A stretch of DNA of 64,000 nucleotides from Mayamaea pseudoterrestris (Eukaryota; Bacillariophyta; Bacillariophyceae; Sellaphorales; Sellaphoraceae), in NCBI GenBank assembly GCA_027923505.1, contig BROI01000013.1, positions 558,001 to 622,000 of the forward strand, read 5' to 3'. A program made the position numbers and the translations under genes. The notes beneath the pieces were generated by a model, which saw nothing but the letters and a program-made list of their open reading frames with translations, was not told where the DNA came from and ran no database searches. This document shows, piece after piece, positions 5,331-55,653 of the stretch (positions within the stretch are counted from its first letter, which is position 1; each line of letters opens with the position of its first letter).

Positions 5331-5856
5331 TGCTGGGATCCCCGTTTTGGCCGACGAACAAAGCAACATTGAAAAGGACATCGACACGGTCTCAGCGGCA
5401 CCAAGACACGGAACATCCCGTTCACGACCACACTCCTACGACGGCGAGAGTAGAAAGTCAGCCACTGGCCCAAACCCTACACACTTCACCGTACCCGAAG
5501 AATTCACGACTGACAACCGTAGAAAGACTACCGCAGGTACATCAAATACCGGAACCGGCGTACACAGCGAATGTTCGGCCTCTACAGAGCGAAGCTGTGC
5601 AAACACTACCAGCAGTGAAGACTATACTGCCAATTCTGTAGACGGACGAGAGCCATCCCGCCTACGGGATGGCCAGTACAAAATGACACGACCGGTAGAC
5701 AATACACATACGTATGAATGAGAAGACACTCTTGGATGCGAAATCGACCGCTTCACTTTCGTCTCATTCTAGAGGATCTACTAACAATAGATTCAATTTA
5801 AAACACCCCCCGCCAAACGCAAGTCCCAATTAGCGTTCAAACCGTCTTCCCTCACA
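5331..5856 (+). mobile_element. Candidate 3' LTR of the copia element
   Basis: A purine tract AAGGGAAGGG (5321-5330) just downstream of RNase H is followed by TGCTGGGATC, the expected arrangement of polypurine tract and LTR 5' end (TG). The stretch ends with CTCACA at 5851-5856, giving possible CA ends at 5854 or 5856, directly before the first recognisable satellite A sequence. The 5' LTR and target-site duplication lie outside the window, so the borders are inferred. The retroelement reading frame stays open until 5721 inside this interval, which is unusual but not excluded. Confidence 0.4.
5652..5673 (+). other. Perfect 9-bp stem hairpin in the retroelement 3' region
   Basis: GCCATCCCG, loop CCTA, then CGGGATGGC: a perfect GC-rich inverted repeat in the presumed LTR. 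As RNA it would fold into a stable stem with a four-base loop; it could take part in transcript 3'-end formation or packaging, or be incidental. Confidence 0.6.
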
Positions 5857-8022
5857 TGGGTACGCCTCCATCTTGGGTCTCAGCAAACACCACAAATTGT
5901 CAATTCTTCCCTGTCAAACGCCCCATGCCCTGGCCACCCAAATACCCAATGAGTCAGGCCAAACATGTCCAGGGTATGCCATTGACTGGTGCAGAGTCTC
6001 AAATGGTGCAAAAAGGACTGCCTGGAGGCTGACACCATGGGTACGGCCTCCACGGTGGGTATGGCCAACACCACAAGTTGTCAATTCTTCCCTGTCAAAC
6101 GCCCCATGCCCTGGCCACCCAAATACCCAATGAGTCAGGCAAAACATGTCCAGGGTATGCCATTGACAGGTGCAGAGTCTCAAATGGTGCAAAAAGGACT
6201 GCCTGGAGGCTGACACCATGGGTACGGCCTCCACGGTGGGTATGGCCAACACCACAAGTTGCAGATTCTTACCTGTCAAACGCCCCATGCCCTGGCCACC
6301 CAAATACCCAATGAGTCAGGCAAAACATGTCCAGGGGATGCCATTGACAGGTGCAGAGTCTCAAATGGTGCAAAAAGGACTGCCTGGAGGCTGAAACCAT
6401 GGGTACGGCCTCCACGGTGGGTATGGCCAACACCACAAGTTGTAGATTCTGCCCTGTCAAACGCCCCATGCCCTGGCCACCCAAATACCCAATGAGTCAG
6501 GCAAAACATGTCCAGGGTATTCCATTGACAGGTGCATAGTCTCAAATGGTGCAAAAAGGACTGCCTGGAGGCTGACACCATGGGTACGGCCTCCACGGTG
6601 GGTATGCCAACACCACAAGTTGTCGATTCTTACCTGTCAAACGCCCCATGCCCTGGCCACCCAAATACCCAATGAGTCAGGCCAAACATGTCCAGGGTAG
6701 GCCATTGACAGGTGCATAGTCTCAAATGGTGCAAAAAGGACTGCCTGGAGGCTGACACCATGGGTACGGCCTCCACTGTGGGTATGGCCAACACCACAAG
6801 TTGCCGATTCTGACCTGTCAAACGCCCCATGCCCTGGCCACCCAAATACCCAATGAGTCAGGCAAAACATGTCCAGGGTATGCCATTGACAGGTGCAGAG
6901 TCTCAAATGGTGCAAAAAGGACTGCCTGGAGGCTGACAACATGGGTACGGCCTCCACTGTGGGTATGGCCAACACCACAAGTTGTCGATTCTTCCCTGTC
7001 AAACGCCCCATGCCCTGGCCACCCAAATACCCAATGAGTCAGGCAAAACATGTCCAGGGTAGGCCATTGACAGGTGCAGAGTCTCAAATGGTGCAAAAAG
7101 GACTGCCTGGAGGCTGACACCATGGGTACGGCCTCCACGGTGGGTATGGCCAACACCACAAGTTGTCGATTCTGACCTGTCAAACGCCCCATGCCCTGGC
7201 CACCCAAATACCCAATGAGTCAGGCAAAACATGTCCAGGGTATGCCATTGACAGGTGCAGAGTCTCAAATGGTGCAAAAAGGACTGCCTGGAGGCTGAGA
7301 ACATGGGTACGGCCTTAAGTATGGCCAACACCACAAGTTGCAGATTCTTCCCTGTCAAACGCCCCATGCCCTGGCCACCCAAATACCCAATGAGTCAGGC
7401 CAAACATGTCCAGGGTATGCCATTGACAGGTGCAGAGTCTCAAATGGTGCAAAAAAGGACTGCCTGGAGGCTGACACCATGGGTACGGCCTCCACTGTGG
7501 GTATGGCCAACACCACAAGTTGCAGATTCTGACCTGTCAAACGCCCCATGCCCTGGCCACCCAAATACCCAATGAGTCAGGCAAAACATGTCCAGGGTAT
7601 GCCATTGACAGGTGCAGAGTCTCAAATGGTGCAAAAAGGACTGCCTGGAGGCTGACACCATGGGTACGACCTCCACTGTGGGTATGGCCAACACCACAAG
7701 TTGCAGATTCTTCCCTGTCAAGCGCCCCATGCCCTGGCCACCCAAATACCCAATGAGTCAGGCAAAACATGTCCAGGGGATGCCATTGACAGGTGCAGAG
7801 TCTCAAATGGTGCAAAAAGGACTGCCTGGAGGCTGAAAACATGGGTACGGCCTCCACTGTGGGTATGGCCAACACCACAAGTTGCAGATTCTTCCCTGTC
7901 AAACGCCCCATGCCCTGGCCACCCAAATACCCAATGAGTCAGGCAAAACATGTCCAGGGTATGCCATTGACAGGTGCATAGTCTCAAATGGTGCAAAAAG
8001 GACTGCCTGGAGGCTGAAACCA

Positions 8023-11000
8023 TGGGTACGGCCTCCACTGTGGGTATGCCAACACCACAAGTTGCAGAATCTTCCCTGTCAAACGCCCCACGCCCTGGCC
8101 ACCCAAATACCCAATGAGTCAGGCAAAACATGTCCAGGGTATGCCATTGACAGGTGCATAGTCTCAAATGGTGCAAAAGGACTGCCTGGAGGCTGAAAAC
8201 ATGGGTACGGCCTCCACTGTGGGTATGGCCAACACCACAAGTTGCAGATTCTTCCCTGTCAAACGCCCCATGCCCTGGCCACCCAAATACCCAATGAGTC
8301 AGGCAAAACATGTCCAGGGATGCCATTGACAGGTGCATAGTCTCAAATGGTGCAAAAAGGACTGCCTGGAGGCTGACACCATGGGTACGGCCTCCACTGT
8401 GGGTATGGCCAACACCACAAGTTGCAGATTCTTCCCTGTCAAACGCCCCATGCCCTGGCCACCCAAATACCCAATGAGTCAGGCAAAACATGTCCAGGGT
8501 ATGCCATTGACAGGTGCATAGTCTCAAATGGTGCAAAAAGGACTGCCTGGAGGCTGACACCATGGGTACGGCCTCCACTGTGGGTATGCCAACACCACAA
8601 GTTGCAGATTCTTCCCTGTCAAACGCCCCATGCCCTGGCCACCCAAATACCCAATGAGTCAGGCAAAACATGTCCAGGGTATGCCATTGACAGGTGCATA
8701 GTCTCAAATGGTGCAAAAAGGACTGCCTGGAGGCTGACAACATGGGTACGGCCTCCACTGTGGGTATGGCCAACACCACAAGTTGCAGATTCTTCCCTGT
8801 CAAACGCCCCATGCCCTGGCCACCCAAATACCCAATGAGTCAGGCAAAACATGTCCAGGGTATGCCATTGACAGGTGCATAGTCTCAAATGGTGCAAAAA
8901 GGACTGCCTGGAGGCTGACAACATGGGTACGGCCTTCACTGTGGGTATGGCCAACACCACAAGTTGCAGATTTTTCCCTGTCAAACGCCCCATGCCCTGG
9001 CCACCCAAATACCCAATGAGTCAGGCAAAACATGTCCAGGGTATGCCATTGACAGGTGCAGAGTCTCAAATGGTGCAAAAAGGACTGCCTGGAGGCCGAA
9101 AACATGGGTACGGCCTTCACTGTGGGTATGGCCAACACCACAAGTTGCAGATTCTTCCCTGTCAAACGCCCCATGCCCTGGCCACCCAAATACCCAATGA
9201 GTCAGGCAAAACATGTCCAGGGTATGCCATTGACAGGTGCATAGTCTCAAATGGTGCAAAAAGGACTGCCTGGAGGCTGAAAACATGGGTACGGCCTCCA
9301 CTGTGGGTATGGCCAACACCACAAGTTGCAGATTCTTCCCTGTCAAACGCCCCATGCCCTGGCCACCCAAATACCCAATGAGTCAGGCAAAACATGTCCA
9401 GGGTATGCCATTGACAGGTGCATAGTCTCAAATGGTGCAAAAGGACTGCCTGGAGGCTGACACCATGGGTACGGCCTCCACTGTGGGTATGGCCAACACC
9501 ACAAGTTGCAGATTCTTCCCTGTCAAACGCCCCATGCCCTGGCCACCCAAATACCCAATGAGTCAGGCAAAACATGTCCAGGGGATGCCATTGACAGGTG
9601 CATAGTCTCAAATGGTGCAAAAGGACTGCCTGGAGGCTGAAAACATGGGTACGGCCTCCACTGTGGGTATGGCCAACACCACAAGTTGCAGATTCTTCCC
9701 TGTCAAACGCCCCATGCCCTGGCCACCCAAATACCCAATGAGTCAGGCAAAACATGTCCAGGGTATGCCATTGACAGGTGCAGAGTCTCAAATGGTGCAA
9801 AAGGACTGCCTGGAGGCTGACAACATGGGTACGGCCTCCACTGTGGGTACGGCCTCCACTGTGGGTATGCCAACACCACAAGTTGCAGAATCTTCCCTGT
9901 CAAACGCCCCACGCCCTGGCCACCCAAATACCCAATGAGTCAGGCAAAACATGTCCAGGGTATGCCATTGACAGGTGCATAGTCTCAAATGGTGCAAAAG
10001 GACTGCCTGGAGGCTGAAAACATGGGTACGGCCTCCACTGTGGGTATGGCCAACACCACAAGTTGCAGATTCTTCCCTGTCAAACGCCCCATGCCCTGGC
10101 CACCCAAATACCCAATGAGTCAGGCAAAACATGTCCAGGGATGCCATTGACAGGTGCATAGTCTCAAATGGTGCAAAAAGGACTGCCTGGAGGCTGACAC
10201 CATGGGTACGGCCTCCACTGTGGGTATGGCCAACACCACAAGTTGCAGATTCTTCCCTGTCAAACGCCCCATGCCCTGGCCACCCAAATACCCAATGAGT
10301 CAGGCAAAACATGTCCAGGGTATGCCATTGACAGGTGCATAGTCTCAAATGGTGCAAAAAGGACTGCCTGGAGGCTGACACCATGGGTACGGCCTCCACT
10401 GTGGGTATGCCAACACCACAAGTTGCAGATTCTTCCCTGTCAAACGCCCCATGCCCTGGCCACCCAAATACCCAATGAGTCAGGCAAAACATGTCCAGGG
10501 TATGCCATTGACAGGTGCATAGTCTCAAATGGTGCAAAAAGGACTGCCTGGAGGCTGACAACATGGGTACGGCCTCCACTGTGGGTATGGCCAACACCAC
10601 AAGTTGCAGATTCTTCCCTGTCAAACGCCCCATGCCCTGGCCACCCAAATACCCAATGAGTCAGGCAAAACATGTCCAGGGTATGCCATTGACAGGTGCA
10701 TAGTCTCAAATGGTGCAAAAAGGACTGCCTGGAGGCTGACAACATGGGTACGGCCTTCACTGTGGGTATGGCCAACACCACAAGTTGCAGATTTTTCCCT
10801 GTCAAACGCCCCATGCCCTGGCCACCCAAATACCCAATGAGTCAGGCAAAACATGTCCAGGGTATGCCATTGACAGGTGCAGAGTCTCAAATGGTGCAAA
10901 AAGGACTGCCTGGAGGCCGAAAACATGGGTACGGCCTTCACTGTGGGTATGGCCAACACCACAAGTTGCAGATTCTTCCCTGTCAAACGCCCCATGCCCT

Positions 11001-11664
11001 GGCCACCCAAATACCCAATGAGTCAGGCAAAACATGTCCAGGGTATGCCATTGACAGGTGCATAGTCTCAAATGGTGCAAAAAGGACTGCCTGGAGGCTG
11101 AAAACATGGGTACGGCCTCCACTGTGGGTATGGCCAACACCACAAGTTGCAGATTCTTCCCTGTCAAACGCCCCATGCCCTGGCCACCCAAATACCCAAT
11201 GAGTCAGGCAAAACATGTCCAGGGTATGCCATTGACAGGTGCATAGTCTCAAATGGTGCAAAAGGACTGCCTGGAGGCTGACACCATGGGTACGGCCTCC
11301 ACTGTGGGTATGGCCAACACCACAAGTTGCAGATTCTTCCCTGTCAAACGCCCCATGCCCTGGCCACCCAAATACCCAATGAGTCAGGCAAAACATGTCC
11401 AGGGGATGCCATTGACAGGTGCATAGTCTCAAATGGTGCAAAAGGACTGCCTGGAGGCTGAAAACATGGGTACGGCCTCCACTGTGGGTATGGCCAACAC
11501 CACAAGTTGCAGATTCTTCCCTGTCAAACGCCCCATGCCCTGGCCACCCAAATACCCAATGAGTCAGGCAAAACATGTCCAGGGTATGCCATTGACAGGT
11601 GCAGAGTCTCAAATGGTGCAAAAGGACTGCCTGGAGGCTGACAACATGGGTACGGCCTCCACTG
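8023..11664 (+). repeat. Higher-order tandem duplication, 2 x 1,821 bp, in satellite A
   Basis: Copy 1 (8023-9843) and copy 2 (9844-11664) are ordered blocks of about 10 monomers with the same private variants: GCAGAATC with CACGCCC near 8065 and 9886, the shortened CCAGGGATGCC near 8316 and 10137, the run GATTTTTCCC near 8970 and 10791, and GGAGGCCGAAAAC near 9092 and 10913. The junction near 9844 repeats an 18-base piece (TACGGCCTCCACTGTGGG), as expected for unequal exchange out of monomer register. I saw no difference between the copies, so the event is recent. Confidence 0.9.
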
Positions 11665-12272
11665 TGGGTATAGCCAACACCACAAGTTGCAGATTCTTCC
11701 CTGTCAAACGCCCCATGCCCTGGCCACCCAAATACCCAATGAGTCAGGCAAAACATGTCCAGGGGATGCCATTGACAGGTGCAGAGTCTCAAATGGTGCA
11801 AAAGGACTGCCTGAGGCTGACAACATGGGTACGGCCTCCACTGTGGGTATGGCCAACACCACAAGTTGCAGATTCTTCCCTGTCAAACGCCCCATGCCCT
11901 GGCCACCCAAATACCCAATGAGTCAGGCAAAACATGTCCAGGGGATGCCATTGACAGGTGCAGAGTCTCAAATGGTGCAAAAAGGACTGCCTGGAGGCTG
12001 ACAACATGGGTACGGCCTCCACTGTGGGTATGGCCAACACCACAAGTTGCAGATTCTTCCCTGTCAAACGCCCCATGCCCTGGCCACCCAAATACCCAAT
12101 GAGTCAGGCAAAACATGTCCAGGGTATGCCATTGACAGGTGCATAGTCTCAAATGGTGCAAAAAGGACTGCCTGGAGGCTGAACACATGGGTACGGCCTC
12201 CACTGTGGGTATGGCCAACACCACAAGTTGCAGATTCTTCCCTGTCAAACGCCCCATGCCCTGGCCACCCAG

Positions 12273-14512
12273 ATACCCAATGAGTCAGGCAAAACATGTC
12301 CAGGGTATGCCATTGACAGGTGCATAGTCTCAAATGGTGCAAAAGGACTGCCTGGAGGCTGACAACATGGGTACGGCCTCCACTGTGGGTATGGCCAACA
12401 CCACAAGTTGCAGATTCTTCCCTGTCAAACGCCCCATGCCCTGGCCACCCAAATACCCAATGAGTCAGGCAAAAACATGTCCAGGGGATGCCATTGACAG
12501 GTGCATAGTCTCAAATGGTGCAAAAGGACTGCCTGGAGGCTGAACAACATGGGTACGGCCTCCACTGTGGGTATGGCCAACACCACAAGTTGCAGATTCT
12601 TCCCTGTCAAACGCCCCATGCCCTGGCCACCCAAATACCCAATGAGTCAGGCAAAACATGTCCAGGGTATGCCATTGACAGGTGCATAGTCTCAAATGGT
12701 GCAAAAGGACTGCCTGGAGGCTGACAACATGGGTACGGCCTCCACTGTGGGTATGGCCAACACCACAAGTTGCAGATTCTTCCCTGTCAAACGCCCCATG
12801 CCCTGGCCACCCAAATACCCAATGAGTCAGGCAAAACATGTCCAGGGTATGCCATTGACAGGTGCATAGTCTCAAATGGTGCAAAAGGACTGCCTGGAGG
12901 CTGACAACATGGGTACGGCCTCCACTGTGGGTATGGCCAACACCACAAGTTGCAGATTCTTCCCTGTCAAACGCCCCATGCCCTGGCCACCCAAATACCC
13001 AATGAGTCAGGCCAAACATGTCCAGGCGATGCCATTGACAGGTGCAGAGTCTCAAATGAGTGAAAAAGGACTGCCTGAGGCGAAAACCAGTGGGTATGGC
13101 CAACACCACAAGTTGCAGATTCTTCCCTGTCAAACGCCATCGGACCACCCAATACCCAATGAGTCAGGCAAAACATGTCCAGGGTTTGCCATTGACAGGT
13201 GCAGAGTCTCAAATGGTGCAAAAAGGACTGCCTGGAGGCTGACACCCGACGGTCCACTGTGGGTATGGCAACACCACAAGTTGCAGATTCTTCCCTGTCA
13301 AACGCCCCATGCCCTGGCCACCCAAATACCCAATGAGTCAGGCAAAACATGTCCAGGGGATGCCATTGACAGGTGCAGAGTCTCAAATGGTGATACCCAA
13401 TGAGTCAGGCAAAACATGTCCAGGGTATGCCATTGACAGGTGCATAGTCTCAAATGGTGCAAAAGGACTGCCTGGAGGCTGACAACATGGGTACGGCCTC
13501 CACTGTGGGTATGGCCAACACCACAAGTTGCAGATTCTTCCCTGTCAAACGCCCCATGCCCTGGCCACCCAAATACCCAATGAGTCAGGCAAAAACATGT
13601 CCAGGGGATGCCATTGACAGGTGCATAGTCTCAAATGGTGCAAAAGGACTGCCTGGAGGCTTAACAACATGGGTACGGCCTCCACTGTGGGTATGGCCAA
13701 CACCACAAGTTGCAGATTCTTCCCTGTCAAACGCCCCATGCCCTGGCCACCCAAATACCCAATGAGTCAGGCAAAACATGTCCAGGGTATGCCATTGACA
13801 GGTGCATAGTCTCAAATGGTGCAAAAGGACTGCCTGGAGGCTGACAACATGGGTACGGCCTCCACTGTGGGTATGGCCAACACCACAAGTTGCAGATTCT
13901 TCCCTGTCAAACGCCCCATGCCCTGGCCACCCAAATACCCAATGAGTCAGGCAAAACATGTCCAGGGTATGCCATTGACAGGTGCATAGTCTCAAATGGT
14001 GCAAAAGGACTGCCTGGAGGCTGACAACATGGGTACGGCCTCCACTGTGGGTATGGCCAACACCACAAGTTGCAGATTCTTCCCTGTCAAACGCCCCATG
14101 CCCTGGCCACCCAAATACCCAATGAGTCAGGCCAAACATGTCCAGGCGATGCCATTGACAGGTGCAGAGTCTCAAATGGGTGAAAAAGGACTGCCTGAGG
14201 CGAAAACCAGTGGGTATGGCCAACACCACAAGTTGCAGATTCTTCCCTGTCAAACGCCATCGGACCACCCAATACCCAATGAGTCAGGCAAAACATGTCC
14301 AGGGTTTGCCATTGACAGGTGCAGAGTCTCAAATGGTGCAAAAAGGACTGCCTGGAGGCTGACACCCGACGGTCCACTGTGGGTATGGCAACACCACAAG
14401 TTGCAGATTCTTCCCTGTCAAACGCCCCATGCCCTGGCCACCCAAATACCCAATGAGTCAGGCAAAACATGTCCAGGGGATGCCATTGACAGGTGCAGAG
14501 TCTCAAATGGTG
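12273..14512 (+). repeat. Higher-order tandem duplication, 2 x 1,120 bp, in satellite A
   Basis: Copy 1 (12273-13392) and copy 2 (13393-14512) share a very distinctive set of damaged monomers, for example GCCTGAGGCGAAAACCAGTG (near 13073 and 14193), CGCCATCGGACCACCC (near 13135 and 14255) and GACACCCGACGGTCC (near 13241 and 14361). The join at 13392/13393 breaks a monomer (AAATGGTG directly followed by ATACCCAATGAG). At least two substitutions separate the copies (ATGAGTG versus ATGGGTG; GGCTGAAC versus GGCTTAAC). The damaged monomers therefore existed before the duplication. Confidence 0.9.
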
Positions 14513-14640
14513 GTGTTGGCCAACACCACAAGTTGCAGATTCTTCCCTGTCAAACGCCCCATGCCCTGGCCACCCAAATACCCAATGAGTCAGGCAAAAC
14601 ATGTCCAGGGTAGGCCATTGACAGGTGCAGAGCCTCAAAT

Positions 14641-17600
14641 GGGAAAAAAAGGACTGCCTGGAGGCTGACAACTGGGTACGCCTCCACTGTGGGTATACCA
14701 ACAAGTTGCAGATTCTTCCCTGTCAACATGCCCTGGCCACCCAAATACCCAATGAGTCAGGCAAAACATGTCCAGGTGATGCCATTGACAGGTGCAGAGT
14801 CTCAAAGGTGAAAGATGGAGGCTGACAACATGGGAGCCTCCAGTGGGTATGGCCAACACCACAAGTTGCAGATTCTTCCCGTCAAACGCCCCATGCGGCC
14901 ACCCAAATACCCAATGAGTCAGGCAAAACATGTCCAGGGTATGCCATTGACAGGTGCATAGTCTCAAATGGTCAAAAAGGATGCCTGAGGCTGACAACTT
15001 AGCTCCACTGTGGGTATGGCCAACACCACAAGTTGCAGATTCTCCTGTCAAACGCCCCATGCCTGGCCACCCAAATACCCAATGAGTCAGGCAAAACATG
15101 TCCAGGGTATGCTATTGGCAGGTGCATAGTCCAAATGGTGCAAAAGGAGCCTGAGGCTGAACCATGGGTACGGCCCACTGTGGGTATGCCAACACACTGC
15201 AGATTCTTCCCAAACCCCATGCCCTGGCCACCCAAATACCCAATGAGTCAGGCAAAACATGTCCAGGGTAGGCCAGACAGGTGCATAGTCTCAAATGGTG
15301 AAAGGACCGTCTAGAGGTGACAACATGGGTACCTAGTGGGATGGCAAACACAAGTTGCAGATTCTTCCCTGTCAAACGCCCCATGCCCTGGCCACCCAAA
15401 TACCCAATGAGTCAAGCAAAACATGTCCAGGGATACCATGACAGGTGCAGAGTCTCAAATGGTGCAAAGCTGTGCTGGAGGCCGACAACATGACGGCTCC
15501 ACTGGGGTATGGCCAACACCACAAGTTGCAGATTCTTCCTGTCAAACGCCCCATGCCCGGCCACCCAAATACCCAATGAGTCAGGCAAAACAGTCCAGGG
15601 TGCCACACAGGTGCAGAGTCTCAAATGGCGCAAAAGGACTGTGAGGCTGGAAAAACTCCACTGGGTAGGCCACACCACAAGTTGAGATTCTTCTGTCAAA
15701 CGCATGCCTGGCCACCCAAATACCCAACGAGTCAGGCAAAACATGTCCAGGGTATGCCATTGACAGGTGCATAGTCTCAAATGGTGCAAAAGGACTGCTG
15801 AGGACACAGGGTCCCTCCATGGGTATGGCAACACCACAAGTTGCAGATTCTTCCCTGTCAAACGCCCCATGCCCTGGCCACCCAAAACCCAATGAGTCAG
15901 GCAAAACATGTCCAGGGGAGGTGAGGTGCATAGTCTCAAATGGTGAGGGAGGTGAACCGGGTACGCTCCATGGGTATGGCCAACACCACAATTGAGATCT
16001 CCTGTCAAAGCATGCTGGCACCCAACCAATGAGTCAGTAAAACATGTCCAGGGTATGCATTGAGTCTCATGGTGCAAAAGGAAAGACACAAGTTGTCGAC
16101 GGACTGTCAAACGCCGCCCTGCCACCCAAATACCTGATGAGTCATGTCCAGGGTATGCCATTGACAGGTGCAGAGTCTCAAATGGTGCAAAGGAGGAGGT
16201 GACACAGATCCCCACACCGCAGCCGTTGGCCAAACCACAAGTTTTTCAAAATGCTGGCCACCCAAATGCAAACATGTCCAGGGTATGCATTGACAGGTGC
16301 AGAGTCTCAACGGTGCAAAAAGGACTGTGGAGGCTGACACCATGGGTACGGCCCCACCGTGGGTGTAAGGGCCAAACACAAGCTGTCAAACCATGCCTGG
16401 CCACCCAAATACCAATGATCAGGCCAAACATGTCCAGGGTATGCCATTGACAGGTGCAGAGTCTCAAATGGTGCAAAAGGACTGCCTGAGGCACACCATG
16501 GGGTAGCCCAGTGGGTATGGCCAACACCACAAGTTGACGATTTTCTGTCAAAGCCCCATGCCTGGCCACCAAATACCCAATGAGTCAGGCCAAACATGTC
16601 CAGGGTATGCCATGACAGCAGCGTCTCAAATGGTTGGCAAAAGGATGGGAACGGGTGGTCCATGGGTATGGCCAACACCACAAGTTGCCGATTCTTCCTG
16701 TCAAACGCCCCATGCCCTGGCCACCCAAATACCCAATGAGTCAGGCAAAACACCCAGGGTATGCCATTGACAGGTGCAGAGTCTCAAATGGTGCAAAAAG
16801 GACCGCCTGGAGGTTGACACCATGGGTACGGCCCCACTGTGGGTTGGCCAAACAAGTTGTCGATTCCCCTGTCAAACCCCCTGCGGCCACAAATACCATG
16901 AGTAAAACATGTCCAGGGTATGCCAATGACAGGTGTAGTCCGGTGCAAAAGGACTGTGGAGGCTGACACCAGGCGGGAACACAAGTTGCGATTCCTGTCA
17001 AACCATGCCCTGGCCACCCAAATACCAATGAGTCAGGCCAAACATGTCCAGGGAGGATACAGCATAGTCTCATGGTGCAAAAGGACTGCCTGGAGGCTGA
17101 ACATACGCCCACTGTGGGTATGGGCCAACACCCGCAAGTGTCGATTATGTCAAGCATGTGGCCACCCAAATACCCAATGAGTCAGGCAAAACATGTCCAG
17201 GGATGCCATTGACAGGTGCAGAGTCTCAAATGGTGCAAAGGACTGCCGAGGCTGAACAGGGGCCTCCATGGGTATGGCCAACACCACAAGTTGTCGACTG
17301 CTGTCAAACCCCATGCCTGGCCACCCAAAAACCCAATGAGTCAGGCAAAATGTCCAGGGGAGGATTGAAGGTGCATAGTCTCAATGGTGCAAAAGGACTG
17401 CTGGAGGTGACACCATGGAGCCCCACGGTGGGTATGGCCAACACCACAAGTTGTCGATTCCCCGTCAAACGCCCCATGCCCTGGCCACAAATACCCAATG
17501 AGTCAGGCCACAAATGTCCAGGGTATGCCATTGACAGGTGCAAGTCTCAAATGGTGCAAAAGGACTGCCTGGAGGCTGACAATCCATGTTATGGCAACAC

Positions 17601-18955
17601 ACAAGTTGTCATCCTGTCAAACGCCCCATGCCCTGGCCACCCAAATACAATGAGTCGGGCAAAACATGTCCAGGGTAGGCCATTGACAGGTGCAAGTCTC
17701 AAATGGTGCAAAAGGAGCTGAGGCTGACACAGGGTACGGCCTCCAGTGGGTTGAAACACAAGTTGCCGAATTTCCTGTCAAAGCCATGCTGGCCACCAAA
17801 ACCAATGAGTCAGGCAAAACATGTCCAGGGATGCCATTGACAGGTGCAGAGTCTCTGTGCAAAAAGGACTGCTGAGGCTGACAACATGGGTACGGTCTCC
17901 ACTGTGGGTTGGCCAACACCACAGGTTGCAGATTCTCCTGTCAAATGCCCCTGGCCACCAAAACCCAATGAGTCAGAAAAATCAGGGTGTGAGTGATACT
18001 CAAATGTGCAAAAAGGACTGTGAGGCTGACAACATGGGTACGGCCCCACTGTGGGTATGGCCAACACCACAAGTTGGATTCCCTGTCAAACGCCCCATGC
18101 CCTGGCCACCCAAATACCCAATGAGTCAGGCAAACATGTTCAGGGTAGGCCATTGACAGGTGACAGAGTCTCAAATGGAGCGGAGAGGTAACCACGGTCC
18201 CACTGACCAAGTGTGTCAAACGCCCCATGCCCTGCACCCAAAATGAGTCAAACATCCAGGAGGTGCATTGCAAAAGGACTGCCTAGAGGCTGACACCATG
18301 GGTACGGCCTCCACGGTGGGTATGGCCAACACCACAAGTTGTCGATTCCACAAACGCCCATGCCCACACAAATACCAATGAGTCAGGCCAAACATGTCCA
18401 GGGGATGCCATTGACAGGTGCATAGTCTCAAATGGTGTAAAAGGACTGCCTGGGAGTACGACAACATGGGTATGGCTCCACGGTGGTTGTGGCCAACATT
18501 TCACAAGTTGTCGATTCTTCCGTCAAACATCAAACAAAATACCCAATGAATCAGACAATCCAGGGGATACCATTAAAGGAGAGTCTCAAAAGCAAAAAGG
18601 ACTGCCTGAGGCTGACACCATGGGTACCGTCATTGGGTGTGGTTGGCAACACAAGTTTTCAAACGCCCATGCCTGGCCACCCAAATACCGATGAGTCAGG
18701 CAAAAACATCCAGGGCTGACGGGGTGCTCGGGCAAGGGTAAGTTGCAATCCCTCATGCCCAAATACCCAATGAGTCAGGCCAAACATGTCCAGGGGATGC
18801 CATTGACAGGTGCATAGTCTGGTGAAAAGGACTGCCTGGAGGCTGAGCCACCAGGTACGGACTCCACGGTATGGCCAATGACCACAAGTTGTCGATTCTG
18901 ACTCAAACGCCCATGCCTGCCGCCCACAATACCCGATGAGTGATTTCAGGGTATT
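14641..18955 (+). repeat. Satellite A, left arm, eroded part running up to the inversion point
   Basis: Same orientation as the preceding array, but monomers are shortened by many small deletions. The half containing CTGGAGGCTGACACCATGGG and GGCCTCCACTGTGGG is badly eroded, while the block from CCACCCAAATACCCAATGAG to AACATGTCCAGGG stays largely readable in most units. The last left-facing unit ends near 18955 (CCGATGAGTGATTTCAGGG). This could be old, unhomogenised DNA at the turning point or poorly polished assembly. Confidence 0.93.
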
Positions 18956-21900
18956 TTGACAGGGAGAGTGCGACAAATTTGGTGTTGGCCACGCCGGAGG
19001 CGGACCTGGTGTCAGCTCCGGCAGTCCTTTTTGCACCATTTGAGACTCTGCACCTGTCAATGGCATACCCTGGACATGTTTTGCCTGACTCATTGGGTAT
19101 TTGGGTGGCCAGGGCATGGGGCGTTTGACAGGTCAGAATCGACAACTTGTGGTGTTGGCCATACCCACCGTGGAGGCCGTGTGTGTCAGCCTCCAGGCAG
19201 TCCTTTTTGCACCATTTGAGACTCTGCACCTGTCAATGGCATACCCTGGACATGTTTGGCCTGACTCATTGGGTATTTGGGTGGCCAGGGCATGGGGCGT
19301 TTGACAGGTCAGAATCGACAACTTGTGGTGTTGGCCATACCCACCGTGGAGGCCGTACCCATGGTGTCAGCCTCCAGGCAGTCCTTTTGCACCATTTGAG
19401 ACTCTGCACCTGTCAATGGCATACCCTGACATGTTGCCCTGTCATTGGGTGTGGTGTGGCCGGGCATGGGCGTTTGACAGGTCAGAATCGACAACTTGTG
19501 GTGTTGGCCATACCCACCGTGGAGGCCGTGGTGTCAGCCTCCAGGCAGTCCTTTTTGCACCATTTGAGACTCTGCACCTGTCAATGGCAAACCCTGGACA
19601 TGTTTAGCCTGACTCATTGGGTATTTGGGTGGCCAGGGGCGGGTTGCGGCAGAATCGCAATGTGGTGTTGGCCATACCCACCGTGGAGGCCGTACCCACG
19701 TGTCAGCCTCCAGGCAGTCCTCTTTGCACCATTTGAGACTCTGCACCTGTCAATGGCATACCCTGGACATGTTTGGCCTGACTCATTGGGTATTTGGGTG
19801 GCCAGGGCATGGGGCGTTTGACAGGTCAGAATCGACAACTTGTGGTGTTGGCCATACCCACCGTGGAGGCCGTACCCATGGTGTCAGCCTCCAGGCAGTC
19901 CTTTTTGCACCATTTGAGACTCTGCACCTGTCAATGGCATACCCTGGACATGTTTGGCCTGACTCATTGGGTATTTGGGTGGCCAGGGCATGGGGCGTTT
20001 GACAGGTCAGAATCGACAACTTGTGGTGTTGGCCATACCCACCGTGGAGGCCGTACCCATGGTGTCAGCCTCCAGGCAGTCCTTTTTGCACCATTTGAGA
20101 CTCTGCACCTGTCAATGGCATACCCTGGACATGTTTGGCCTGACTCATTGGGTATTTGGGTGGCCAGGGCATGGGGCGTTTGACAGGTCAGAATCGACAA
20201 CTTGTGGTGTTGGCCATACCCACCGTGGAGGCCGTACCCATGGTGTCAGCCTCCAGGCAGTCCTTTTGCACCATTTGAGACTCTGCACCTGTCAATGGCA
20301 TACCCTGGACATGTTTGGCCTGACTCATTGGGTATTTGGGTGGCCAGGGCATGGGGCGTTTGACAGGTCAGAATCGACAACTTGTGGTGTTGGCCATACC
20401 CACCGTGGAGGCCGCACCCATGGTGTCAGCCTCCAGGCAGTCCTTTTGCACCATTTGAGACTCTGCACCTGTCAATGGCATACCCTGGACATGTTTGGCC
20501 TGACTCATTGGGTATTTGGGTGGCCAGGGCATGGGGCGTTTGACAGGTCAGAATCGACAACTTGTGGTGTTGGCCATACCCACCGTGGAGGCCGTACCCA
20601 TGGTGTCAGCCTCCAGGCAGTCCTTTTGCACCATTTGAGACTCTGCACCTGTCAATGGCATACCCTGGACATGTTTGGCCTGACTCATTGGGTATTTGGG
20701 TGGCCAGGGATGGGGCGTTTGACAGGTCAGAATCGACAACTTGTGGTGTTGGCCATACCCACCGTGGAGGCCGTACCCATGGTGTCAGCCTCCAGGCAGT
20801 CCTTTTGCACCATTTGAGACTCTGCACCTGTCAATGGCATACCCTGGACATGTTTGGCCTGACTCATTGGGTATTTGGGTGGCCAGGGCATGGGGCGTTT
20901 GACAGGTCAGAATCGACAACTTGTGGTGTTGGCCATACCCACCGTGGAGGCCGTACCCATGGTGTCAGCCTCCAGGCAGTCCTTTTTGCACCATTTGAGA
21001 CTCTGCACCTGTCAATGGCATACCCTGGACATGTTTGGCCTGACTCATTGGGTATTTGGGTGGCCAGGGCATGGGGCGTTTGACAGGTCAGAATCGACAA
21101 CTTGTGGTGTTGGCCATACCCACCGTGGAGGCCGTACCCATGGTGTCAGCCTCCAGGCAGTCCTTTTTGCACCATTTGAGACTCTGCACCTGTCAATGGC
21201 ATACCCTGGACATGTTTGGCCTGACTCATTGGGTATTTGGGTGGCCAGGGCATGGGGCGTTTGACAGGTCAGAATCGACAACTTGTGGTGTTGGCCATAC
21301 CCACCGTGGAGGCCGTACCCATGGTGTCAGCCTCCAGGCAGTCCTTTTTGCACCATTTGAGACTCTGCACCTGTCAATGGCATACCCTGGACATGTTTGG
21401 CCTGACTCATTGGGTATTTGGGTGGCCAGGGCATGGGGCGTTTGACAGGTCAGAATCGACAACTTGTGGTGTTGGCCATACCCACCGTGGAGGCCGTACC
21501 CATGGTGTCAGCCTCCAGGCAGTCCTTTTTGCACCATTTGAGACTCTGCACCTGTCAATGGCATACCCTGGACATGTTTGGCCTGACTCATTGGGTATTT
21601 GGGTGGCCAGGGCATGGGGCGTTTGACAGGTCAGAATCGACAACTTGTGGTGTTGGCCATACCCACCGTGGAGGCCGTACCCATGGTGTCAGCCTCCAGG
21701 CAGTCCTTTTGCACCATTTGAGACTCTGCACCTGTCAATGGCATACCCTGGACATGTTTGGCCTGACTCATTGGGTATTTGGGTGGCCAGGGCATGGGGC
21801 GTTTGACAGGTCAGAATCGACAACTTGTGGTGTTGGCCATACCCACCGTGGAGGCCGTACCCATGGTGTCAGCCTCCAGGCAGTCCTTTTTGCACCATTT

Positions 21901-33900: not shown

Positions 33901-36900
33901 CAATGGCATACCCTGGACATGTTTGGCCTGACTCATTGGGTATTTGGGTGGCCAGGGCATGGGGCGTTTGACAGGTCAGAATCGACAACTTGTGGTGTTG
34001 GCCATACCCACCGTGGAGGCCGTACCCATGGTGTCAGCCTCCAGGCAGTCCTTTTGCACCATTTGAGACTCTGCACCTGTCAATGGCATACCCTGGACAT
34101 GTTTGGCCTGACTCATTGGGTATTTGGGTGGCCAGGGCATGGGGCGTTTGACAGGTCAGAATCGACAACTTGTGGTGTTGGCCATACCCACCGTGGAGGC
34201 CGTACTCATGGTGTCAGCCTCCAGGCAGTCCTTTTTGCACCATTTGAGACTCTGCACCTGTCAATGGCATACCCTGGACATGTTTGGCCTGACTCATTGG
34301 GTATTTGGGTGGCCAGGGCATGGGGCGTTTGACAGGTCAGAATCGACAACTTGTGGTGTTGGCCATACCCACCGTGGAGGCCGTACCCATGGTGTCAGCC
34401 TCCAGGCAGTCCTTTTTGCACCATTTGAGACTCTGCACCTGTCAATGGCATACCCTGGACATGTTTGGCCTGACTCATTGGGTATTTGGGTGGCCAGGGC
34501 ATGGGGCGTTTGACAGGTCAGAATCGACAACTTGTGGTGTTGGCCATACCCACCGTGGAGGCCGTACCCATGGTGTCAGCCTCCAGGCAGTCCTTTTTGC
34601 ACCATTTGAGACTCTGCACCTGTCAATGGCATACCCTGGACATGTTTGGCCTGACTCATTGGGTATTTGGGTGGCCAGGGCATGGGGCGTTTGACAGGTC
34701 AGAATCGACAACTTGTGGTGTTGGCCATACCCACCGTGGAGGCCGTACCCATGGTGTCAGCCTCCAGGCAGTCCTTTTGCACCATTTGAGACTCTGCACC
34801 TGTCAATGGCATACCCTGGACATGTTTGGCCTGACTCATTGGGTATTTGGGTGGCCAGGGCATGGGGCGTTTGACAGGTCAGAATCGACAACTTGTGGTG
34901 TTGGCCATACCCACCGTGGAGGCCGTACCCCATGGTGTCAGCCTCCAGGCAGTCCTTTTTGCACCATTTGAGACTCTGCACCTGTCAATGGCATACCCTG
35001 GACATGTTTGGCCTGACTCATTGGGTATTTGGGTGGCCAGGGCATGGGGCGTTTGACAGGTCAGAATCGACAACTTGTGGTGTTGGCCATACCCACCGTG
35101 GAGGCCGTACCCATGGTGTCAGCCTCCAGGCAGTCCTTTTGCACCATTTGAGACTCTGCACCTGTCAATGGCATACCCTGGACATGTTTGGCCTGACTCA
35201 TTGGGTATTTGGGTGGCCAGGGCATGGGGCGTTTGACAGGTCAGAATCGACAACTTGTGGTGTTGGCCATACCCACCGTGGAGGCCGTACCCCATGGTGT
35301 CAGCCTCCAGGCAGTCCTTTTTGCACCATTTGAGACTCTGCACCTGTCAATGGCATACCCTGGACATGTTTGGCCTGACTCATTGGGTATTTGGGTGGCC
35401 AGGGCATGGGGCGTTTGACAGGTCAGAATCGACAACTTGTGGTGTTGGCCATACCCACCGTGGAGGCCGTACCCCATGGTGTCAGCCTCCAGGCAGTCCT
35501 TTTTGCACCATTTGAGACTCTGCACCTGTCAATGGCATACCCTGGACATGTTTGGCCTGACTCATTGGGTATTTGGGTGGCCAGGGCATGGGGCGTTTGA
35601 CAGGTCAGAATCGACAACTTGTGGTGTTGGCCATACCCACCGTGGAGGCCGTACCCATGGTGTCAGCCTCCAGGCAGTCCTTTTGCACCATTTGAGACTC
35701 TGCACCTGTCAATGGCATACCCTGGACATGTTTGGCCTGACTCATTGGGTATTTGGGTGGCCAGGGCATGGGGCGTTTGACAGGTCAGAATCGACAACTT
35801 GTGGTGTTGGCCATACCCACCGTGGAGGCCGTACCCATGGTGTCAGCCTCCAGGCAGTCCTTTTTGCACCATTTGAGACTCTGCACCTGTCAATGGCATA
35901 CCCTGGACATGTTTGGCCTGACTCATTGGGTATTTGGGTGGCCAGGGCATGGGGCGTTTGACAGGTCAGAATCGACAACTTGTGGTGTTGGCCATACCCA
36001 CCGTGGAGGCCGTACCCATGGTGTCAGCCTCCAGGCAGTCCTTTTGCACCATTTGAGACTCTGCACCTGTCAATGGCATACCCTGGACATGTTTGGCCTG
36101 ACTCATTGGGTATTTGGGTGGCCAGGGCATGGGGCGTTTGACAGGTCAGAATCGACAACTTGTGGTGTTGGCCATACCCACCGTGGAGGCCGTACCCATG
36201 GTGTCAGCCTCCAGGCAGTCCTTTTTGCACCATTTGAGACTCTGCACCTGTCAATGGCATACCCTGGACATGTTTGGCCTGACTCATTGGGTATTTGGGT
36301 GGCCAGGGCATGGGGCGTTTGACAGGTCAGAATCGACAACTTGTGGTGTTGGCCATACCCACCGTGGAGGCCGTACCCATGGTGTCAGCCTCCAGGCAGT
36401 CCTTTTGCACCATTTGAGACTCTGCACCTGTCAATGGCATACCCTGGACATGTTTGGCCTGACTCATTGGGTATTTGGGTGGCCAGGGCATGGGGCGTTT
36501 GACAGGTCAGAATCGACAACTTGTGGTGTTGGCCATACCCACCGTGGAGGCCGTACCCATGGTGTCAGCCTCCAGGCAGTCCTTTTGCACCATTTGAGAC
36601 TCTGCACCTGTCAATGGCATACCCTGGACATGTTTGGCCTGACTCATTGGGTATTTGGGTGGCCAGGGCATGGGGCGTTTGACAGGTCAGAATCGACAAC
36701 TTGTGGTGTTGGCCATACCCACCGTGGAGGCCGTACCCATGGTGTCAGCCTCCAGGCAGTCCTTTTGCACCATTTGAGACTCTGCACCTGTCAATGGCAT
36801 ACCCTGGACATGTTTGGCCTGACTCATTGGGTATTTGGGTGGCCAGGGCATGGGGCGTTTGACAGGTCAGAATCGACAACTTGTGGTGTTGGCCATACCC

Positions 36901-39900
36901 ACCGTGGAGGCCGTACCCATGGTGTCAGCCTCCAGGCAGTCCTTTTTGCACCATTTGAGACTCTGCACCTGTCAATGGCATACCCTGGACATGTTTGGCC
37001 TGACTCATTGGGTATTTGGGTGGCCAGGGCATGGGGCGTTTGACAGGTCAGAATCGACAACTTGTGGTGTTGGCCATACCCACCGTGGAGGCCGTACCCA
37101 TGGTGTCAGCCTCCAGGCAGTCCTTTTGCACCATTTGAGACTCTGCACCTGTCAATGGCATACCCTGGACATGTTTGGCCTGACTCATTGGGTATTTGGG
37201 TGGCCAGGGCATGGGGCGTTTGACAGGTCAGAATCGACAACTTGTGGTGTTGGCCATACCCACCGTGGAGGCCGTACCCATGGTGTCAGCCTCCAGGCAG
37301 TCCTTTTTGCACCATTTGAGACTCTGCACCTGTCAATGGCATACCCTGGACATGTTTGGCCTGACTCATTGGGTATTTGGGTGGCCAGGGCATGGGGCGT
37401 TTGACAGGTCAGAATCGACAACTTGTGGTGTTGGCCATACCCACCGTGGAGGCCGTACCCATGGTGTCAGCCTCCAGGCAGTCCTTTTTGCACCATTTGA
37501 GACTCTGCACCTGTCAATGGCATACCCTGGACATGTTTGGCCTGACTCATTGGGTATTTGGGTGGCCAGGGCATGGGGCGTTTGACAGGTCAGAATCGAC
37601 AACTTGTGGTGTTGGCCATACCCACCGTGGAGGCCGTACCCATGGTGTCAGCCTCCAGGCAGTCCTTTTGCACCATTTGAGACTCTGCACCTGTCAATGG
37701 CATACCCTGGACATGTTTGGCCTGACTCATTGGGTATTTGGGTGGCCAGGGCATGGGGCGTTTGACAGGTCAGAATCGACAACTTGTGGTGTTGGCCATA
37801 CCCACCGTGGAGGCCGTACCCATGGTGTCAGCCTCCAGGCAGTCCTTTTTGCACCATTTGAGACTCTGCACCTGTCAATGGCATACCCTGGACATGTTTG
37901 GCCTGACTCATTGGGTATTTGGGTGGCCAGGGCATGGGGCGTTTGACAGGTCAGAATCGACAACTTGTGGTGTTGGCCATACCCACCGTGGAGGCCGTAC
38001 CCATGGTGTCAGCCTCCAGGCAGTCCTTTTGCACCATTTGAGACTCTGCACCTGTCAATGGCATACCCTGGACATGTTTGGCCTGACTCATTGGGTATTT
38101 GGGTGGCCAGGGCATGGGGCGTTTGACAGGTCAGAATCGACAACTTGTGGTGTTGGCCATACCCACCGTGGAGGCCGTACCCATGGTGTCAGCCTCCAGG
38201 CAGTCCTTTTTGCACCATTTGAGACTCTGCACCTGTCAATGGCATACCCTGGACATGTTTGGCCTGACTCATTGGGTATTTGGGTGGCCAGGGCATGGGG
38301 CGTTTGACAGGTCAGAATCGACAACTTGTGGTGTTGGCCATACCCACCGTGGAGGCCGTACCCATGGTGTCAGCCTCCAGGCAGTCCTTTTTGCACCATT
38401 TGAGACTCTGCACCTGTCAATGGCATACCCTGGACATGTTTGGCCTGACTCATTGGGTATTTGGGTGGCCAGGGCATGGGGCGTTTGACAGGTCAGAATC
38501 GACAACTTGTGGTGTTGGCCATACCCACCGTGGAGGCCGTACCCATGGTGTCAGCCTCCAGGCAGTCCTTTTTGCACCATTTGAGACTCTGCACCTGTCA
38601 ATGGCATACCCTGGACATGTTTGGCCTGACTCATTGGGTATTTGGGTGGCCAGGGCATGGGGCGTTTGACAGGTCAGAATCGACAACTTGTGGTGTTGGC
38701 CATACCCACCGTGGAGGCCGTACCCATGGTGTCAGCCTCCAGGCAGTCCTTTTGCACCATTTGAGACTCTGCACCTGTCAATGGCATACCCTGGACATGT
38801 TTGGCCTGACTCATTGGGTATTTGGGTGGCCAGGGCATGGGGCGTTTGACAGGTCAGAATCGACAACTTGTGGTGTTGGCCATACCCACCGTGGAGGCCG
38901 TACCCATGGTGTCAGCCTCCAGGCAGTCCTTTTTGCACCATTTGAGACTCTGCACCTGTCAATGGCATACCCATGACATGTTTGGCCTGACTCATTGGGT
39001 ATTTGGGTGGCCAGGGCATGGGGCGTTTGACAGGTCAGAATCGACAACTTGTGGTGTTGGCCATACCCATGGTGTCAGCCTCCAGGCAGTCCTTTTTGCA
39101 CCATTTGAGACTCTGCACCTGTCAATGGCATACCCTGGACATGTTTGGCCTGACTCATTGGGTATTTGGGTGGCCAGGGCATGGGGCGTTTGACAGGTCA
39201 GAATCGACAACTTGTGGTGTTGGCCATACCCACCGTGGAGGCCGTACACATGGTGTCAGCCTCCAGGCAGTCCTTTTTGCACCATTTGAGACGCGCAGGA
39301 CTGTCCGCACCTGCACCCAGCCGTAGCTATTTGAAGACATGTTTGGCCTGACTCATTGGGTATTTGGGTGGCCAGGGCATGGGGCGTTTGACAGGTCAGA
39401 ATCGACAACTTGTGGTGTTGGCCATACCCACCGTGGAGGCCGTACCCATGGTGTCAGCCTCCAGGCAGTCCTTTTTGCACCATTTGAGACTCTGCACCTG
39501 TCAATGGCATACCCTGGACATGTTTGGCCTGACTCATTGGGTATTTGGGTGGCCAGGGCATGGGGCGTTTGACAGGTCAGAATCGACAACTTGTGGTGTT
39601 GGCCATACCCACCGTGGAGGCCGTACCCATGGTGTCAGCCTCCAGGCAGTCCTTTTGCACCATTTGAGACTCTGCACCTGTCAATGGCATTACCCGACAG
39701 TTTTGGCCTGACTCATTGGGTATTTGGGTGGCCAGGGCATGGGGCGGTTGACAGGTCAGAATCGACAACTTGTGGTGTTGGCCATACCCACCGTGGAGGC
39801 CGTACCCATGGTGTCAGCCTCCAGGCAGTCCTTTTTGCACCATTTGAGACTCTGCACCTGTCAATGGCATACCCTGGACATGTTTGGCCTGACTCATTGG

Positions 39901-45900: not shown

Positions 45901-46440
45901 TCCAGGCAGTCCTTTTGCACATTTGAGACTCTGCACCTGTCAATGGCAACCCTGGACATGTTTGGCCGGTGGGGTGGGGCGCTTGACAGGCAGAACGACA
46001 ACTGTGGTGTTGGCCAACCCAGACCGGTGTCAGCCTCCGGCAGTCCTTTTTGCACCATTTGAGACTCTGCACTGTCAATGGCATACCCTGGACATGTTTG
46101 GCCTGATCATTGGGTATGGGGGCCAGGGCAGGCGCGCGGTTTTTGCAATTTGAGACTCTGACTGTCAATGGTACCCACATGTTTGGCCTGACTCATTGGG
46201 TATTTGGGTGGCCAGGGCATGGGGCAGCCTCCAGGCAGTCCTTTTTGCACCATTTGAGACTCTGCACCTGTCAATGGCATACCCTGGACATGTTTGGCCT
46301 GACTCATTGGGTATTTGGGTGGCCAGGGCATGGGGCGTTTGACAGGTCAGAATCGACAACTTGTGGTGTTGGCCATACCCACCGTGGAGGCCGTACCCAT
46401 GGTGTCAGCCTCCAGGCAGTCCTTTTGCACCATTTGCGAC
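18956..46440 (-). repeat. Satellite A, right arm, main homogeneous array (180-182-bp monomers, opposite orientation)
   Basis: From 18956 the same monomer reads as its reverse complement on the + strand (TTGGCCTGACTCATTGGG, TTTGGGTGGCCAGGGCATGG, CTGCACCTGTCAATGGC). Most copies from 19.7 to 38.9 kb are nearly identical. Length alternates among 180, 181 and 182 bp through a T-run (CCTTTTGC or CCTTTTTGC) and a C-run (TACCCATGG or TACCCCATGG). The dominant variant here (CAGGTCAGAATCGAC, ATGTTTGGCC) differs from the left arm's dominant variant. From about 39 to 46.4 kb units gain private changes, including truncations near 41.4, 42.0, 44.6 and 45.2 kb and strongly eroded units at 45.84-46.23 kb. 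Confidence 0.97.
24335..31290 (-). repeat. Higher-order tandem duplication, 2 x 3,478 bp, in satellite A
   Basis: Copy 1 (24335-27812) and copy 2 (27813-31290) carry the same order of 180/181/182-bp monomers and the same rare variant CAGTCCATTTGCACC (near 26042 and 29520). The junction at 27812/27813 is out of register: GTTGGCCATA is followed directly by GTTTGACAGGTCAG, so a partial monomer marks the exchange point. The copies appear almost identical. Confidence 0.9.
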
Positions 46441-48345
46441 ACTGCACCTGTCAATGGCATACCCTGGACATGTTTTGCCTGACTCATTGGGTATTTGGGT
46501 GGCCAGGGCATGGGGCGTTTGACAGGTCAGAATCTACAACTTGTAATGTTGGCCATACCCACAGGGGAGGCCGTACCCATGGTGTCAGCCTCCAGGCAGT
46601 TCTGTTTGCACCATTTGAGACTCTGCACCTGTCAATGGCATAACCGGGACATGTTTTGCCTGACTCATTGGGTATTTGGGTGGCCAGGGCATGGGGCGTT
46701 TGACAGGTCAGAATCTACAACTTGTGGTGTTGGCCATACCCACAGTGGAGGCCGTACCCATGGTGTCAGCCTCCAGGCAGTCCTTTTTGCACCATTTGAG
46801 ACTCTGCACCTGTCAATGGCATACCCTGGACATGTTTTGCCTGACTCATTGGGTATTTGGGTGGCCAGGGCATGGGGCGTTTGACAGGTCAGAATCGACA
46901 ACTTGTAGTGTTGGCCATACCCACAGGGGAGGCCGTACCCATGGTGTCAGCCTCCAGGCAGTTCTGTTTGCACCATTTGAGACTCTGCACCTGTCAATGG
47001 CATACCCTGGACATGTTTTGCCTGACTCATTGGGTATTTGGGTGGCCAGGGCATGGGGCGTTTGACAGGTCAGAATCGACAACTTGTGGTGTTGGCCATA
47101 CCCACAGTGGAGGCCGTACCCATGGTGTCAGCCTCCAGGCAGTCCTTTTAGCACCATTTGAGACTCTGCACCTGACAATGGCATACCCTGGACATGTTTT
47201 GCCTGACTCATTGGGTTGTTGGGTGGCCAGGGCATGGGGCGTCTGACAGGTCAGAATCTACAACTTGTAATGTTGGCCATACCCACAGGGGAGGCCGTAC
47301 CCATGGTGTCAGCCTCCAGGCAGTCCTTTTTGCACCATTTGAGACTCTGCACCTGTCAATGACACACCCTGGACATGTTTTGCCTGACGCATTGGGTATT
47401 TGGGTGGCCAGGGCATGGGGCATTTGACAGGTCAGAATCTACAACTTGTGGTGTTGGCCATACCCACAGTGGAGGCCGTACCCATGGTGCCAGCCTCCAG
47501 GCAGTCCTTTTTGCACCATTTGAGACTCTGCACCTGTCAATGGCATACCCTGGACATGTTTTGCCTGACTCATTGGGTATTTGGGTGGCCAGGGCATGGG
47601 GCGTTTGACAGGGAAGAATCTGCAACTTGTGGTGTTGGCCATACCCACAGTGGAGGCCGTACCCATGGTGTCAGCCTCCAGGCAGTCCTTTTAGCACCAT
47701 TTGAGACTCTGCACCTGACAATGGCATACCCTGGACATGTTTTGCTTGACTCATTGGGTTGTTGGGTGGCCAGGGCATGGGGCGTCTGACAGGTCAGAAT
47801 CTACAACTTGTAATGTTGGCCATACCCACAGGGGAGGCCGTACCCATGGTGTCAGCCTCCAGGCAGTCCTTTTTGCACCATTTGAGACTCTGCACCTGTC
47901 AATGACACACCCTGGACATGATTTGCCTGACTCATTGGGTATTTGGGTGGCCAGGGCATGGGGCGTTTGACAGGTCAGAATCTACAACTTGTGATGCTGG
48001 CCATACCCACAGTGGAGGTGGGCCGTACACATGGTGTCAGCCTCCAGGCAGTCCTTTTTGCATCATTTGAGACTCTGCACCTGTCAATGGCATTCCCTGG
48101 ACATGTTTTGCTTGACTCATTGTGTATTAGGGTGGCCAGGGCATGTTGCGTTTGACAGGTCAGAATCTACAACTTGTGGTGTTGGCCATACCCACAGTGG
48201 AGGCCATACCCATGGTGTCAGCCTCCAGGCATTCCTTTTGCACCATTTGAGACTCTGCACCTATCAATGGCATACCCTGGGGAATGTTTTGCCTGACTCA
48301 TTGGGTATTTGGGTAGCCAGGGCATTGGGCATTTTACAGGTCAAT
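46441..48345 (-). repeat. Satellite A, right arm, variant monomers at the outer edge
   Basis: The last ten or so monomers of the right arm carry edge variants: ATGTTTTGCCTGACTC in place of ATGTTTGGCCTGACTC, AATCTACAACTTGTAATG, CCCACAGGGGAGG, and ATTGGGTTGTTGGGTGG in two units (near 47210 and 47755). Several of these states also occur in the left arm or in the diverged A' copies at 53.6-54.7 kb, so the edge records older diversity that escaped homogenisation. A two-monomer repeat is visible (units near 47.1-47.3 kb recur near 47.65-47.9 kb). Confidence 0.92.
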
Positions 48346-55650: not shown

Positions 55651-55653
55651 TTT

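Follow-up and report, generated by a model that had tools for sequence, protein, structure and literature searches.

The window analysed here is a stretch of 64,000 nucleotides on contig 13 of the Mayamaea pseudoterrestris assembly (C13:558001-622000; the genome comprises 30.6 Mb in 41 contigs). It contains a long tandem array of a 181-bp unit, a Ty1/copia-like element to the left of the array and two further satellites to its right. The features are listed below; positions are those of the window unless a contig is named (C13, C10 and so on).

C13:540.25-556.0 kb (approximate; left of the window), minus strand: 169-bp satellite, same family as that at 48353-53647
225-5721, plus strand: Ty1/copia-like element, with open reading frames at 225-1976 (Pol_BBD) and 2941-5721 (RVT_2)
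5857-18955, minus strand when the right-arm monomer is taken as plus: left arm of the 181-bp satellite, with clean sequence up to about 12.9 kb and mostly deletion-ridden sequence beyond
8023-11670, no strand: tandem duplication in the form of an exact 1827-bp repeat at an offset of 1821 (dividing the offset by 181 leaves 11)
12272-14512, no strand: near-exact tandem duplication at an offset of 1120 (remainder 34 on division by 181)
12911-18955, minus strand: low-quality bridge, deletion-rich with substitutions unchanged
18941-18971, no strand: orientation flip, best placed after 18954
18956-48345, plus strand: right arm of the 181-bp satellite, from Tandem Repeats Finder and alignment
24335-31290, no strand: exact 3478-bp tandem duplication, seam at 27812/27813 (remainder 39 on division by 181)
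48353-53647, plus strand: second satellite with a unit of 167-169 bp, right of the 181-bp array
53649-54663, plus strand: satellite with a 180-bp unit, which is about 77% similar to that of 181 bp, right of the 167-169-bp satellite

The 181-bp block consists of many head-to-tail copies of one unit and is thus a satellite DNA array. Tandem Repeats Finder rows of this family span 5854-48343, with interruptions at about 15.9-17.0 and 18.2-19.0 kb; the two main rows hold 120.8 copies with 97% matches (19007-40853) and 41.9 copies with 96% matches (5854-13392).

Orientation was scored by wrap-around alignment of the array against one right-arm monomer. An earlier note on this DNA had described a single inversion, with minus-oriented monomers at 5857-18955 and plus-oriented monomers at 18956-48345, and had placed no spacer between the arms. 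Both descriptions agree with the alignment: a flip after 18954 gives the best score (39150, versus 30630 for an array that is all plus and 16894 for one that is all minus), and any spacer at the flip is no more than about 30 bp long. Placements scoring at most 3 points below the best occupy 18941-18971, as computed on 17000-21000 only. For the left arm, the score is 10769 in the minus orientation, drops to 2260 when the orientation is reversed and is 1571-1610 after base shuffling (five copies), which puts the flip far above chance. The mirror symmetry proposed at the same time holds for orientation and is overstated at the level of sequence, since the arms measure 13.1 kb (left) and 29.4 kb (right), differ from each other by about 5% and share no exact inverted match longer than 166 bp. 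The left arm starts from about monomer column 60 at the flip and the right arm from about column 121, so that the flip is not a symmetric fold-back.

Base loss and alleles on the two sides of the flip

Compared with the right-arm monomer, the clean part of the left arm (6100-12600) and the stretch next to the flip (14500-18955) both carry 33 substitutions per kb, whereas the deleted bases number 9 per kb in the former and 222 per kb in the latter. Inserted bases are constant at 8-9 per kb in the clean left arm and the bridge, and substitutions in the bridge amount to 31-33 per kb. Deleted bases reach 116 per kb at 12600-14500, and about 540 bp within the bridge are clean (13489-14030). Right of the flip, the figure is 43 per kb at 18956-20000 and 2 per kb at 20000-38500. 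When the deleted share is counted outward from the flip as the fraction of template per 500-bp bin, the leftward values are 0.32, 0.21, 0.17, 0.14, 0.19, 0.13, 0.21, 0.26 and 0.12 in bins 1-9, and 0.09, 0.16, 0.08, 0.01, 0.28, 0.02, 0.01 and 0 in bins 10-17; the late value of 0.28 falls within the first of the two copies that form the 1120-bp duplication. Rightward, the values are 0.042 and 0.048, followed by at most 0.008 in 11 more bins. The base loss is thus one-sided.

Biological decay of old monomers is an unlikely cause of these deletions, because deleted bases increase about 25-fold without extra substitutions. One-base deletions fall in homopolymers of at least three bases in 95% of 38 cases at 20000-38500, but in only 15% of 272 cases in the bridge, where 22% would be expected from the columns; this contrast indicates residual long-read errors in the former region and skipped bases in the latter. 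Multi-base deletions in the bridge (14500-18955) repeat both column and length in 142 of 222 cases, versus 68 (SD 7) at random. Neither plain random skipping nor the controls run explain this recurrence; possible causes are sequence-dependent skipping, common ancestry and alignment habit.

Nanopore reads are described, in the excerpted part of PMC7229812, as normal before the junction of an inverted duplication and as losing bases after it. Here too, bases are lost on one side of an inverted junction; unlike the single reads with phred scores in that excerpt, the present sequence is a consensus, and some of its deletion-rich patches do not adjoin a flip. Two such patches without an adjoining flip are found at 38.5-46.2 kb in the window (45 deleted bases per kb) and at C10:983-985.5 kb (166 per kb), and 79 of the 418 bins of 250 bp in the fetched 181-bp blocks exceed 8 indel bases per 100. 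The pattern of base loss is therefore not specific to inverted molecules. The assembly appears to be built on nanopore-type reads, and the exact junction sequence is untrustworthy. The template length of the bridge (5350 bases) is close to the distance from the flip to 24335 (5379), a likeness spotted post hoc and given no weight.

The earlier note had also stated that the arms carry different dominant variants, and on this point the alleles at column 78 of the monomer and the alignments of the arms agree. The column-78 marker was typed as right or left by exact 8-base motifs. From left to right along the array, the right:left counts are 3:9 (5857-8000), 0:26 (8000-12911), 2:7 (12911-14512), 0:5 (14512-15500), 8:7 (15500-18955), 3:1 (18956-20000), 102:0 (20000-38500) and 1:8 (46200-48345). 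Three more markers give 1:5, 5:3 and 3:4 at 15500-18955. Alleles immediately left of the flip are thus mixed, like those at the outer ends of the array. The right arm is almost invariant at 20-38.5 kb (0.2 substitutions per kb), and its monomers at 46.2-48.3 kb are mostly left-like.

These counts bear on whether the flip could be a library fold-back, that is, a template followed by its own complement and used as a contig extension. Such reads account for about 0.55-0.6% of genomic ONT reads according to the passages of PMC12870357 consulted, and the base loss starts at the flip, as a fold-back would have it. In a fold-back, however, the second half reverse-complements the first, and by the column-78 marker the left side (8:7) is no plain complement of 20000-38500 (102:0). 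Left-type alleles reach the flip, the right arm itself goes from 3:1 at 18956-20000 to 102:0 beyond, and the phases differ (column 60 versus 121). No trace of an ONT or SMRTbell adapter is present in the 300 bp around the flip, where adapter scores are 6.5-8.0 compared with shuffle means of 8.1-9.2 (200 shuffles each). On alleles, phase and adapter, a simple fold-back chimera is unlikely, and we consider fold-back as an explanation of the flip very improbable. The earlier note's argument from the variants therefore holds in so far as it was aimed at a fold-back; it does not reach a misjoin of two opposite arrays, and the bridge is deletion-ridden and flanked on both sides by duplicated overlaps.

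Duplicated segments and other blocks of the satellite

The three large duplications in the window are out of register with the 181-bp unit. In the one with an offset of 1120, exact blocks of 270, 516 and 333 bp are separated by two single differences. Unequal exchange normally preserves register, and because these offsets do not, the large duplications are probably uncollapsed assembly overlaps; alternatively, they could be true out-of-register duplications. A looser screen of other 181-bp blocks for exact repeats of at least 400 bp found one on contig 9 (offset 855), two each at C10:479-488 kb (offsets 1912 and 1913) and on contig 18 (offsets 1020 and 1925), and none in contig 2, contig 28 or the end of contig 18. 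Exact repeats are numerous at C10:993-999 kb, but these belong to the 180-bp relative, which has a period of its own. There the 181-bp array gives way to a long array of this relative, and the repeats reach 1091 bp and recur at offsets near multiples of 352 bp.

The 181-bp satellite occurs on at least 12 contigs (C1, C2, C7, C9, C10, C12, C13, C16, C18, C23, C28 and C30), and the 169-bp family on at least 18. A single contig can carry separate blocks, for example C10 at 480-487, 985-993 and 1052-1056 kb. Seven 181-bp blocks were read: that of the window and those on C2, C9 (part), C10:982.7-992.6 kb, C10:479-488 kb, C18 (to the contig end) and C28 (first 9 kb). Two of the seven, some of which were read only in part, contain a flip, namely the window's and one at C10:485492; none is seen in the other five. 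The flip on contig 10 joins monomer columns 87 and 12, compared with 60 and 121 in the window, and is thus probably an independent event. Flips therefore recur in the assembly, at different phases. To the right of the contig 10 flip, the first 60 alignment steps comprise 59 matches and one insertion; the block around it has, on both sides, raw-read-like rates of 41-42 substitutions, 73-100 deletions and 30-31 insertions per kb. Contig 18 (C18:708.5-724.151 kb) ends inside the satellite, which indicates that the 181-bp repeat breaks the assembly.

A serious rival to a real flip is misassembly, in which two satellite blocks of opposite orientation, from another locus or haplotype, were joined within the repeat and the bridge produced a spurious flip. 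This is a real possibility, though not the reading we prefer. It is favoured by the bridge being deletion-ridden on one side only, by the out-of-register duplications with offsets of 1120 and 3478 that flank the bridge, by near-identical blocks on at least 12 contigs, which could confuse an assembler, and by the termination of contig 18 within the satellite. The second flip, on contig 10, speaks against it, as does the arrangement of the surrounding satellites described below.

The same survey bears on the idea of a functional palindrome, whose arms would extrude, yield long double-stranded RNA for silencing or mark a centromere. Matches to the Piwi domain at two places on contig 5 make an Argonaute pathway possible. 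The arms are unequal and diverged to the extent given above, however, and five of the seven blocks, some read in part, lack a flip. A centromeric satellite would carry CENH3, typically in one region per chromosome, and several blocks on one contig speak against one centromere per chromosome built of the 181-bp satellite. Nothing observed here supports extrusion, silencing or a centromere role, and we propose no particular function for the array. A functional palindrome is the least probable of the explanations considered, with hardly any weight. The Piwi-domain matches themselves (C5:105655-106557 and 116397-117299) lie 10.7 kb apart, and their surroundings (3903 bases) differ at one position; the pair arose either by tandem duplication very recently or as a duplication in the assembly.

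The genome also has 53 matches to PF00504. For one of these proteins the best solved relative is 6ly5_I (FCPI-3) at 331 bits, with 8xls_3 at 306.6 bits, and another has 6l4u_2 as a solved relative; 6ly5 and 6l4u are from Chaetoceros gracilis and 8xls is from Thalassiosira pseudonana.

Order of the flanking satellites

With the 169-bp satellite in minus orientation to the left of the array and in plus orientation to its right, the locus is mirror-ordered over about 72 kb. The Ty1/copia-like element sits between the left 169-bp array and the left 181-bp arm; no pair of long terminal repeats was found for it in C13:555900-563899. Among the alignments listed, likeness between the left and the right 169-bp array is 89.5-91.5%, compared with 89-93% between shifted copies inside each array. 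Since the two arrays are no closer to each other than are the copies within each, a recent inverted duplication is unsupported.

A haplotype folded on itself was rejected as well. No match to the right flank (C13:612700-632000) was found in C13:538501-558000, a stretch of which only about 1.7 kb belongs neither to the 169-bp array nor to the element; there is thus no sign of a folded haplotype. Within this scope the missing flank match counts against misassembly, as does the mirrored order of the satellites on contig 13. The matches listed for the left-flank query are all satellite and are not counted as evidence. The 181-bp satellite is followed by the 169-bp satellite in one direction in both arms of the window, on C16 and on C28, and the order is reversed on C9. 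Because the order varies in this way, the mirrored arrangement is only moderate evidence.

The left 169-bp array is bordered on its outer side by a diverged stretch of the same family (C13:539588-540070) that runs opposite to the array. This stretch differs mainly by substitutions (71 in 455 aligned bases, with 31 bases deleted and 27 inserted) and is taken for an older inversion. To the right of the satellites, a 352-bp sequence is present as two adjoining copies that are 88% alike (55301-56005). Also nearby are a gene with the Pfam domain NAD_binding_1 (56989-58005), presumably ferredoxin-NADP-reductase-like, and an open reading frame of 552 amino acids with no Pfam match (58409-60067).

Origin of the flip and comparison with known systems

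Inversions occur inside human and Arabidopsis centromere arrays. For the present array, we infer a real flip in a dispersed block of 181-bp satellite, arising from an ordinary rearrangement and poorly sequenced at its junction, with a probability of roughly 0.6. Recombination or repair would have joined two satellite blocks head to head, after which each arm would have been homogenised independently. About a fifth of the bases are missing on the left side of the bridge, probably through skipping by nanopore-type reads after they cross the inverted junction. The assembly itself shows the flip, the one-sided loss of bases and the mirrored order; the presence of the flip in the chromosome, the sequencing platform and the cause of the loss are inferred.

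The flip score, the mirrored order of the 169-bp satellites, the second flip on contig 10 and the mixed alleles on the left support a real flip, and the one-sided loss, which consists of deletions only, fits bases missed after an inverted junction as in the excerpt of PMC7229812. Several observations weigh on the other side. A real junction with normal two-strand coverage should be polished on both sides, and the out-of-register duplications point to stitching errors within the same array. The flip on contig 10 is embedded in raw-read-like errors on both sides; the deletion-rich patches without a flip, the recurring deletions and the variants of satellite order on C16, C28 and C9 also count against a real flip in the window.

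A more specific possibility, which we hold to be doubtful, is that the locus forms a genuine palindrome of compound structure, about 72 kb long (C13:540-613 kb), running from the 169-bp satellite (minus) through the copia-like element and the 181-bp satellite (minus) to the 181-bp satellite (plus) and the 169-bp satellite (plus), with a capacity for hairpins that spoils nanopore reads on one side. It would place a macro-dyad architecture outside animals, on a dispersed, non-centromeric satellite.

If the flip is real, a unicellular alga joins the cases of satellites organised as opposed arms, and the locus illustrates how an inverted molecule may be recognised in a consensus by bases missing on one side. 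Should the flip be false, the case advises caution, in that satellite flips in long-read assemblies need read support before structural or silencing roles are assigned to them.

A literature search on diatom satellites with Chaetoceros found no related report, and the main text of PMC8147415, on two other diatoms, contains neither 'satellite' nor 'inverted'. Like the fold-back artefact reads in the sections of PMC12870357 at hand, the window has an inverted junction without a spacer in long-read data; unlike those palindromic reads, its arms differ in alleles and are out of phase. The closest parallel is provided by the beetle satellites TmSat1 and TmSat2 of Tribolium madens, for which the parts of PMC13081366 consulted describe 'macro-dyad symmetry' with conserved inversion sites, checked on raw HiFi reads. 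An orientation change that divides an array into two subarrays, which defines a macro-dyad, is found in the assembly at 18954 and at C10:485492, and the diatom locus further resembles these arrays in having subarrays that are joined head to head and span kilobases to tens of kilobases, and in the presence of a second satellite. In contrast to the beetle arrays, which are putatively (peri)centromeric, the diatom blocks are dispersed, and their flips were identified in the assembly. The two diatom flips also lie at different monomer phases, unlike the conserved sites of Tribolium madens, and no conserved inversion-site sequence was found between them (columns 60/121 and 87/12). Orientation flips within satellites are thus already known from the Tribolium macro-dyads, and the 181-bp array is a probable new case of them.
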